A program made the position numbers and the translations under genes. Under the pieces are notes generated by a model. That model worked only from the letters and a program-made list of their open reading frames with translations. It was not told the origin of the DNA and did not search any database. A stretch of DNA of 39,128 nt from Pirellulales bacterium. GTDB lineage: Bacteria > Planctomycetota > Planctomycetia > Pirellulales > JALHPA01. The stretch is from the NCBI GenBank assembly GCA_033762255.1, contig JANRLT010000054.1, positions 1-39,128 on the forward strand, read 5' to 3'. This document shows, piece after piece, positions 19,811-25,366 of the stretch (positions are counted from its first letter, which is position 1; each line of letters starts with the position of its first letter).

Positions 19811-20200
19811 CTTGTGGGCCGTTGGCCCAACCGATCCCAGCCTTACATATTTGAATTGCGGCAAGCAAAGCGTCGCCCTTGGATAATAGGGAAACACAAT
19901 AGGTAGGGCCAAAGGCCCGATTCAACACGTTAATCACAGGCCAACGGTCCACACACATATCCGTGGGCTGAAAGCCCAACATATCCCAGCCTAGGGCAAG
20001 CGCAGCGTCGCCCTAGGTAATTGATGCTTTTCAAAGTGAAGGGCCAAAGGCCCGATTCAACACGTTAATCACAGGCCAACGGTTCGCACACATATCCGTG
20101 GGCTGAAAGCCCAACATATCCCAGCCTAGGGCAAGCGCAGCGTCGCCCTAGGTTAACGATAATTCTAGTAGGAAGGGCCAAAGGCCCGATTCAACAATAC
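19811..20200 (+). repeat. REP cluster: about 135-bp tandem direct repeat upstream of the RAYT gene
   Basis: Two full ~135-bp units start at GGGCCAAAGGCCC (19906 and 20041), and a third, truncated unit starts at 20175. Each full unit contains GGGCCAAAGGCCC, the hairpin GTGGGCTGAAAGCCCA (GTGG at 19963 and 20098) and the hairpin CCTAGGGC...GCCCTAGG (19990-20017, 20125-20152) with GCGCAGCGTC in the loop. A preceding half-unit at 19814 has GTGGGCCGTTGGCCCA. GTGG directly before a hairpin fits the GTRG signature of REP sequences handled by RAYT transposases. Confidence 0.85.
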
Positions 20201-23435: not shown

Positions 23436-23455
23436 GAAGGCGGGAGATTTATTAG

Positions 23456-23720
23456 TCTGTGGGCTGAAAGCCCAACCAACGGCCCGATTCAGAACGCCAT
23501 GCCAAAATTTATTTGAACAGGAGGAAACGGAGGAAGCAGAGGAGAAATTTTATGTTTTTTAATTGGCGTAGAGCAATTACGAATACTTATTGAACAAAAA
23601 GTAACGAAGGGGCGAAAGATTTTATCGGACAAGCGCAGCGTCGCCCTAGGCTGGGATCGGTTGGGCCGTTGGCCCACAGTGATGTTCCGGAGTTTTTCAC
23701 CGCGTCAGACTCCCGACCCC
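23456..23720. repeat. Scattered REP hairpins and GGGGTC-GGAGTC element
   Basis: GTGGGCTGAAAGCCCA with its GTGG signature lies at about 23459-23474, with a partial GGCCCGATTCA at 23482-23492. After about 150 bp of unrelated AT-rich sequence come half of the CCTAGGGC hairpin, the CTGGGATCGG tail, and TGGGCCGTTGGCCCA (23632-23677). Then CGCGTCAGACTCCCGACCCC occurs at 23701-23720, overlapping the 3' end of the kinase gene. Confidence 0.75.
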
Positions 23721-24691
23721 ATGGTTGGCAGCCAAATTCGCGCCGTGCATCCCTGGCCTGGTTCGCTGGTGACGTCGATGGTTCCACCGTGGTCGGTGAT
23801 AATGCGCCAAGCTTTGCACAGGCCAAAGCCCAGCCCGCGGCCGGCCTCACGCCCACTAAAGAACGGATCAAACAGGTGCTCCCGTTCGCGGTCGGTTAAA
23901 CCGGGGCCATTGTCCTGAATAATGATTTCTAGCCCCTCACCCCGACCCTCTCCCGGGGGAAGAGGGGGAGTGGTATTTGCCTCCTCACCCGGCATCAATT
24001 CACCAGGCATCAATTCGCCCGGCACCGCCTCAGCCTGCACCTCTTCACCCCCGCTCCACCGCTCTCCTGCTCCCCCGCTCCCCTGCATACCCTCACTCCG
24101 GCCCTCTCCCGGGGGGAGAGGGAGAGCTAAGGAACCTTTTCCCGGAGGGCGAGGGGGAATTTCAACACTAGCGGTAACGGCAATTTCCCCTCCCGCTGTC
24201 AGCACATCGCACGCATTCTGTAAGACCGCCCGCAATGCGACCGCCAGTTGGACCGGATCGGCAAAGATCACTGGAAGGTCGCCAGGCAATTTCCAGGCAA
24301 GCCCCACGGACTTGGCTTCGGCCACGGGATGGAATTTCTCTAACAGGCCGAGGAGCCACGGTCCGACGGAAATTTTTTCCCTTCGCAGCGCCGGGGGTTT
24401 GGCAAAGAGCATCAAATCGGCGATCATCTCGTGGGCCCGTTGCGCCTGGGCGATAATCATCGCCAGGGTTTGCCGTTTGGCGGTGTCGGTTTCGCCCCGT
24501 AAGAGCGCCTGGGCACGGGCGGAGATATTGGCCAGCGGATTATTGATTTCGTGCCCCGCCCCGTAGGCAAATTCCCGCAGCGCGGCCAGCTTGGCGTTGC
24601 GAAGCTTTGTGTCAAAAGCATCCCGCGGCGGGGCTATATGCCCGTTATTGGTCATGTCACGGGATGAGGGGGGGTGGGGGAAATCCGGCAT
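23705..24691 (-). CDS. Sensor histidine kinase with in-frame repeat insert in the ATPase domain
   Basis: A 328-residue soluble histidine kinase lacking membrane segments. The phosphorylation helix is GAGHEINNPLANISARAQALL with H47; the N box is AVLQNACDVL (about 155-164), G1 is IQDNGPGL (258-265), and the F/G2 region is FDPFFSGREAGRGLGFGL (274-291). Between N box and G1, residues 178-253 are Pro/Gly/Glu-rich and include PPGEGR-type and MPGEL repeats; the underlying DNA (23933-24160) is a repeat element. Typical kinases have only a short beta-turn there. The C-terminus ends after WLPTMGSGV, and its last residues and stop come from another repeat. The start may be ATG 24691 or ATG 24655. The HTH-receiver gene just upstream is its probable partner; an intrinsic terminator lies between them, so they may have separate promoters. 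Confidence 0.88.
   Translation of the reverse strand: MPDFPHPPSSRDMTNNGHIAPPRDAFDTKLRNAKLAALREFAYGAGHEINNPLANISARAQALLRGETDTAKRQTLAMIIAQAQRAHEMIADLMLFAKPPALRREKISVGPWLLGLLEKFHPVAEAKSVGLAWKLPGDLPVIFADPVQLAVALRAVLQNACDVLTAGGEIAVTASVEIPPRPPGKGSLALPLPPGEGRSEGMQGSGGAGERWSGGEEVQAEAVPGELMPGELMPGEEANTTPPLPPGEGRGEGLEIIIQDNGPGLTDREREHLFDPFFSGREAGRGLGFGLCKAWRIITDHGGTIDVTSEPGQGCTARIWLPTMGSGV
23933..24160. repeat. CTCACCCC palindromes plus C-rich units inside the kinase gene
   Basis: CTCACCCCGACCCTCTCCCG with a G/A-rich complement lies at 23936-23968, and CTCACTCCGGCCCTCTCCCG with GGGGAGAGGGAG at about 24092-24126. Between them are a GGCATCAATTC direct repeat (15-bp period, about 23992-24021) and C-rich units such as CTGCTCCCCCGCTCCCCTGC. 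The same mixture occurs at 2104-2391 between genes. Here the whole insert keeps the reading frame, coding for about 76 residues. Confidence 0.8.
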
Positions 24692-24784: not shown

Positions 24785-25366
24785 CTAGCTGGCGGTGACG
24801 CTTTCCATATCCAAATGGGCGCAGATGCGGTCGATGAGCGCGTCGATCTCGAACGGCTTTTGCAAAAAGTCGTTCGCGCCGGATAGTTTGAGGTCTTCGA
24901 TTTTGTCCGCTTCGACCATGCCGCTGATGCAGATGATTTTGACGTCATCCATGGTGGAGTCGCCGCGCACCCGCTGGCAAACTTCCTTTCCATTGATATC
25001 AGGCAGCATCACATCCAGCACCAGCAGGTCGGGGTGGTATTCCTTGACCATCATACCGGCGTCAAAGCCGTTATTGACGGTGCGGATCTCAAAACGGCCA
25101 TCCCGTTCAAGCATATCGACCATCAGTTCGACCAGCGCGATGTCGTCATCGACAATCAGCAATTTGCGCTTGCCGCTTTCAAGCGCGTCGGTCGGAATGC
25201 CGTTATCGCGCATGAACATGAATAGTTCGGCGCGGGGAATCCGCCGAAACCGGCTGCCCGGGACGCGAAAGCCCTTTAACTGGCCCGAATCAAAGCAGCG
25301 AATGATCGTTTGTTGACTGACTTTGCAGATTTTAGCCGCTTCGCCAGTGGTGTAGACATCTTTCAT
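24785..25366 (-). CDS. Response regulator with N-terminal helix-turn-helix and C-terminal receiver domain
   Basis: A 193-residue regulator with an inverted domain order. Residues 1-55 form an excisionase/MerR-like helix-turn-helix (YTTGEAAKICKVSQQTIIRC, then a wing with RVPGSRFRRI). Residues about 68-190 are a CheY-like receiver: the acidic pair in LLIVDDDIA, the phospho-acceptor aspartate in LLVLDVMLPDI, the T/S in ICISGM and the lysine in LQKPFEID. Phosphorylation by the nearby soluble kinase is likely. The domain order HTH-REC is unusual outside Planctomycetes and related phyla. The ATG at 25366 is preceded by AAGGG. Transcription probably starts near 25.61 kb from a clear promoter, which gives a leader of about 250 nt. 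A strong terminator follows the gene. Confidence 0.9.
   Translation of the reverse strand: MKDVYTTGEAAKICKVSQQTIIRCFDSGQLKGFRVPGSRFRRIPRAELFMFMRDNGIPTDALESGKRKLLIVDDDIALVELMVDMLERDGRFEIRTVNNGFDAGMMVKEYHPDLLVLDVMLPDINGKEVCQRVRGDSTMDDVKIICISGMVEADKIEDLKLSGANDFLQKPFEIDALIDRICAHLDMESVTAS

Follow-up and report, generated by a model that had tools for sequence, protein, structure and literature searches.

A dispersed triplex-motif repeat apparently read in frame as a flexible loop in the ATPase domain of a Pirellulales sensor kinase

The window, i.e., the whole stretch of DNA analysed here, covers 39,128 nucleotides of contig JANRLT010000054.1 from a Pirellulales bacterium (assembly GCA_033762255.1; host genome of 5.47 Mb in 72 contigs) and contains a sensor kinase gene with an insert of repeat DNA in its ATPase domain. 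This gene (23705-24691, 328 aa) was delineated from its open reading frame (ORF), translation, Pfam matches and orthologue alignments. It lies on the minus strand, as do all the features of the kinase, of its insert and of the neighbouring regulator gene given below. Pfam recognised a HisKA domain (3.5e-12) and a HATPase_c domain (2e-17), the latter match beginning only at residue 251, at the end of the insert, and at profile position 35 of 111. The conserved boxes, named H, N, G1, F and G2, were all found in one frame of the kinase translation. They consist of the H box HEINNPL (24533-24553), invariant in the orthologue alignment except for I49, itself nearly so, the N box NACD (24206-24217) with an invariant N159, the G1 box DNGPGL (23897-23914), the F box DPFF (23858-23869) and the G2 box GLGFGL (23819-23836). 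With both domains and all five boxes, the gene qualifies as a HisKA/HATPase_c sensor kinase, and the catalytic boxes are intact, as proposed by the first-pass annotation, which was made from the letters of the DNA. Upstream of it, a response-regulator gene with HTH_17 and Response_reg domains (24785-25366) was identified from Pfam and related loci. A homologue of this regulator was found upstream of the kinase and on the same strand in 73 of 80 related loci; 74 loci gave a match, but the weak, opposite-strand one of L241 was left uncounted. The response regulator is probably the operon partner of the kinase.

The insert occupies positions 23933-24160, as first annotated, and its 228 nt correspond to 76 codons (residues 178-253) read in the kinase frame according to the translation and the orthologue comparison. 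It is located at the turn between the strand that follows the N box and the strand that precedes the G1 box. This placement, also proposed from the start, is illustrated by an AlphaFold2 model built from 52 alignment rows (mean predicted local distance difference test score, pLDDT, of 79.7). In this model, residues 178-252 are predicted as a loop devoid of secondary structure, flanked by strands at residues 169-177 (24161-24187, from the translation and the model) and 253-260. The blocks covering residues 181-250 have an average pLDDT of 41-57, and most of the remaining domain blocks exceed 85. A PDB search with the model returned the sensor kinase fold, e.g., ZraS (9jfj, E 5.6e-17). Over positions 23931-24165, the kinase frame is free of stops and the other two frames of the same strand contain 3 and 7 of them.

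The palindromes that had been noticed in the insert were retrieved as well: all three window matches to CCCTCTCCCNNNGGGAGAGGG (≤3 mismatches) lie within it, as compared with 0.04 expected in shuffles. The CTCACCCC palindromes correspond to two copies of TM_ECO, a G/C-rich intrastrand-triplex motif earlier known as PIT, with the published pattern CCCTCNCCC-N3-6-GGGNGAGGG-N3-GGGNGAGGG (Holder et al., 2015, PMC4666352). Unit 1 (23934-23966, translated as PLPPGEGRGEG) and unit 2 (24090-24122, PLPPGEGRSEG) each show one mismatch to this pattern. On the coding strand, such clear units are composed of a C-rich arm, a 3-nt loop, the G-rich arm GGGAGAGGG, another 3-nt loop and a second G-rich arm. The consensus unit thus measures 33 nt with its 3-nt loops, and it is stop-free in five of the six frames. 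DNA folding of one unit gave no plain-hairpin signal (z = 0.49), with a folding tool that models no triplexes. The rest of the insert consists of a degenerate third unit, IPPRPPGKGSLA (24125-24160, with its palindrome at 24135-24155 and 3 mismatches), a C-rich 8/16-bp array, MQGSGGAGERWSGGEE (24041-24088), which also matches other parts of the genome, and a 15-bp tandem repeat, VPGELMPGELMPGEEA, present 2.7 times (23978-24025, the repeat itself being called at 23985-24024). The latter was absent from the first-pass annotation, and the genome search with the insert DNA gave no match inside it.

Copies of the element are dispersed throughout the host genome. The palindrome was found at 38 genome sites with ≤2 mismatches and the half unit CCCTCACCCCNNCCCTCTCCC at 48 sites with ≤1 mismatch, the controls (reversed, for the palindrome) giving 0 in both cases; at ≤3 mismatches the control was not clean (57 vs. 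74), and sites were therefore scanned at ≤2. The half unit is patchily distributed, with any copy in 28 of 57 genomes (host included). Using a 3-nt first loop and ≤2 mismatches, 27 distinct units were collected in 69 loci of the host genome, in addition to the two of the kinase. When the insert DNA was searched against its own genome, 51 other matches were obtained, all with E ≤ 0.0133, whereas the neighbouring 521-nt part of the kinase gene found nothing better than E = 0.38. This difference bears on the view of the loop as a common low-complexity linker that evolves fast and resembles repeats by chance. The kinase family does include long loops without recognised repeats, but two units of 33 nt, each 1 mismatch away from an element found genome-wide, together with these matches, make such a coincidence hardly credible.

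Several other repeats were observed along the way. In five host loci (L002, L005, L009, L012 and L059), a longer conserved repeat contains two triplex units at a distance of exactly 100 nt, the first of them being flanked by GCGGTA-like and TACCGC arms; the same longer repeat occurs in L004 without the second unit. In the window, a half triplex unit, CCCTCACCCCGGCCCTCTCCT (2164-2184), is found beside a 16-bp tandem array, CACCCCTGCACCTCCG, repeated 8.4 times (2245-2378). A tandem repeat of 135 bp that includes GGGCTGAAAGCCC-type hairpins lies at 19901-20196, with similar pieces at about 23455-23690, just downstream of the kinase, and probably represents a further intergenic repeat family.

The kinase itself is widespread in the order, with a profile match at E ≤ 1e-45 in 186 of 196 genomes (host included). 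The spacing from the N box to the G1 box is 101 residues in the window, vs. 24-97 in the best-matching kinases from 53 other genomes; 54 of 57 genomes were aligned for this purpose, G036, G038 and G056 being left out for weak best matches. In G001, the one other genome from the taxonomic family of the host, the spacing is a plain 29. Likewise, the distance from the H box to the G1 box (213 residues) is the longest among 134 unique kinases, the median being 145.5 and the next values 188 and 186. This set was derived from 179 kinase rows, reduced to 138 by removing 37 duplicates and 4 rows without the H-box pattern (including L017, which has the spacing of 97); 134 of these gave a distance. The first-pass annotation had proposed to look for orthologues sharing the loop without the repeat DNA, and no examined orthologue has the same loop.

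In three other genomes, G044, G054 and G058, repeats from their own genomes occupy the corresponding kinase turn. The loop of G044 contains a TM-like unit whose second loop is of 2 nt but which otherwise has zero mismatches, with 8 other matches in its own genome (E < 0.01). The loop of G054 contains a different triplex-like unit, CCCCTCCC-N5-GGGAGGGG-N3-GGGGAGGG, with one mismatch and 41 other own-genome matches (E < 1e-3). The congeneric G020 has a plain turn with a spacing of 34. G058 (the record of L206) contains a TM-like unit with 7 other own-genome matches (E < 0.01). A scan of the 138 unique kinases, begun 25 residues ahead of the H box and continued to the end of the ORF, was then made (≤5 mismatches for the TM pattern, ≤4 for the G054 pattern), and matches to both patterns fell solely in the turn: L016, L018 and L025 were clear and L206 was weak. 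As four genomes had been picked by the appearance of their loops, the number of affected genomes gives a minimum and should not be taken as a rate. G036, which belongs to the five-genome genus of G044 and G054, gave no orthologue at E ≤ 1e-45. In G057, of the same genus, the kinase (L172) runs, at the turn, into a repeat-like hairpin and then continues into unrelated sequence up to the contig end, without a G1 box. This break is either a real rearrangement or a misassembly, and G057 was left out of the count. A GGATGGC tandem stretch was also observed in the kinase loop of G043 (L078) and might be a further type of repeat at this turn.

Assemblers can be misled by repeats, as the G057 kinase running off its contig after a hairpin might exemplify, and the window insert could then be an artefact in which unrelated DNA was joined at a repeat. 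However, both halves of the window kinase share a reading frame and align with a single family of orthologues, repeats fill the corresponding turn in three other assemblies, and AceE and a PSD1 protein of the host genome are similarly affected (see below). Hence, an assembly error is considered very improbable.

Indeed, the kinase is not the only host gene with such units. Eight of the 29 units are in frame within five ORFs longer than 300 aa, units in shorter ORFs (e.g., the 199-aa ORF of L110) being counted as intergenic. Two of them are in the kinase, one in a PSCyt2/PSD1 protein (L098), two near the end of an ORF without Pfam match (L099), two near the start of the ORF of an MmgE/PrpD protein (L100) and one, with two mismatches, in the pyruvate dehydrogenase E1 AceE (L133). 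All eight would be translated as PLPxGEGxGEG-like peptides, i.e., the element is read in a single strand and frame in every case. The AceE spacing across the unit is 33 residues, vs. 25-31 in 16 measured relatives (26 in 13 of them), and E. coli AceE has a gap at this position. No such unit was detected in the AceE of 29 relatives, 16 being inspected by pattern and 13 by eye; the first pattern caught 17 of the 30 sequences (own included), and G001 had no AceE match. In the PSD1 protein L098, a 30-residue block missing from its paralogue L136 stands right after the common LDWLAVEF. Three further ORFs, L136, L102 and L105, fall below the three-arm pattern at 2 mismatches and are weaker cases or break the single-frame picture. 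In L102, the palindrome is read in another frame. L105 (788-2092, type I restriction specificity-like, HsdS-like) and L136 (19-3021, PSCyt/PSD1, in a linker) display the repeat-like peptides VSPLPVKEGQGVG and PSPQPSPQGEG outside their Pfam domains.

From these comparisons, the insert is best explained as repeat DNA that was inserted into a conserved gene for a two-component kinase and is translated, in the kinase frame, into a flexible loop rich in Pro, Gly and Glu, a reading to which we assign a probability of roughly 0.84. The broader idea of the first-pass annotation was that intergenic repeats can become protein sequence. It finds support in the comparisons made for the kinase, AceE and the PSD1 protein, and in the own-genome repeats in the turn of three other genomes. 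We lean slightly towards a more general proposal, in which triplex elements would act as insertable peptide modules in this planctomycete order. The kinase turn would then have received different triplex families repeatedly and independently, in several lineages, and unrelated genes of a single genome would read the same element in one strand and frame (PLPxGEGxGEG).

Several observations limit or weigh against the repeat explanation of the insert. The kinase-frame segment 23931-24165 also remained stop-free in 186 of 2000 composition shuffles, so that openness alone is weak evidence. The AceE unit, with 2 mismatches, is above the published limit of one, and the units of L099 and L100, being near ORF ends, may lie outside the real gene. 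The unit of G058 is decayed and was recognised through its genome matches, its pattern support being weak. Moreover, the loops of L202, L023, L213 and L211 are long without recognised repeats (the long loops of L202, L023, L019, L213 and others were not searched against their own genomes), which implies that length variation of the turn needs no repeats. Lastly, no other genome of the genus of the window (g1) turned up in the searches, and there is consequently no close before/after pair for the insert.

The copying mechanism, the order of events, the translation of the loop and its near-neutral effect on kinase activity are inferred. In the proposed scenario, a dispersed 33-nt triplex element would have been copied into the turn between two strands of the ATPase domain. 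A second unit, the C-rich repeat and the 15-bp tandem repeat, the latter grown locally, would have enlarged the loop, the tandem parts arising by slippage. As the unit length is divisible by three and only one of the six frames of its consensus contains a stop, insertion should often be frame-neutral, which would explain why the gene stayed open. The copy would have survived in the turn because this site already tolerates widely differing lengths. The kinase has probably kept its core and gained a flexible loop at a cost close to neutral, so it may still work, as was first suggested. This suggests a route from intergenic repeat to protein, in which in-frame elements would add a floppy loop and leave the core unbroken.

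Alternatively, the insert could have inactivated or split the kinase, giving a decaying pseudogene or a product restarting within the insert. Its loop is the longest of the measured family, and the insert contains three in-frame ATGs (M202, M228 and M233), one of them preceded by G-rich DNA. On the other hand, the 328 codons contain neither stop nor frameshift, the boxes are kept and the remainder aligns well with the orthologues, and the central enzyme AceE bears the same kind of insert. A restarted fragment would lack the N box and hence have an incomplete ATPase domain, which counts against the restart. Loss of the kinase is thus judged quite unlikely. Another view is that the units are kept for a role at the DNA or RNA level, such as triplex formation, pausing or replication, the protein change being a side effect. 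Triplex formation by TM_ECO is reported in vitro, and in E. coli the motif is linked to variable loci (PMC4666352), but each kinase unit carries a mismatch to its pattern, and such a role is considered unlikely as the explanation of the insert.

If repeat DNA did become part of the kinase, an intergenic-type element has crossed into conserved proteins outside Rickettsia, with a before and after that can be tested in the kinase and in pyruvate dehydrogenase. This would be relevant to the ways in which loops arise in proteins, and it serves as a warning that repeat-derived peptides in annotations can belong to real genes. Besides, the kinase family offers a natural set of loop variants for activity assays.

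Among known systems, TM_ECO is reported to be represented by 3610 copies in 262 proteobacterial genomes, the 23 copies of E. coli K-12 MG1655 all being intergenic (PMC4666352). The present element resembles it by its three-arm pattern, matched with ≤1 mismatch by both kinase units (although not by the AceE unit or the third kinase unit), and by its many dispersed genome copies, patchy among relatives. It differs by location, since the units here are in frame in planctomycete genes; location is, however, a reported habit of TM_ECO that stands outside its sequence definition. The string Planctomyc is absent from the main text of that paper, and the literature searches made here, judged by titles and abstract openings, brought up no report of TM_ECO within genes or from Planctomycetes. 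In-frame insertion into unrelated genes, here the kinase, AceE and the PSD1 protein, is reminiscent of the Rickettsia palindromic elements (RPE), which lie in frame within unrelated Rickettsia genes (PMC10969869, PMC3733652). As far as descriptions rather than sequences can be compared, the RPE measure about 150 bp and form ten families (PMC10969869), in contrast with the triplex units of 33 nt described here, which adjoin other repeats and lie in a member of the Planctomycetota, but some RPE families are short too, RPE-4 and RPE-6 being short CGTC-type repeats (PMC3733652). GTAG/CGTC-tagged repetitive extragenic palindromes (REPs) have likewise been described inside ORFs, including in the verrucomicrobium O. 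terrae of the Planctomycetes-Verrucomicrobia-Chlamydiae (PVC) group (PMC3733652). They share with our case the presence of short palindromes within genes, whereas, by description, their families are defined by GTAG/CGTC ends and the kinase units by the triplex pattern. Hence, in-frame palindromes are known from Rickettsia and REPs are known in genes, while a triplex element inside planctomycete genes, as the sequences compared here suggest, would be a further variant of such cases.
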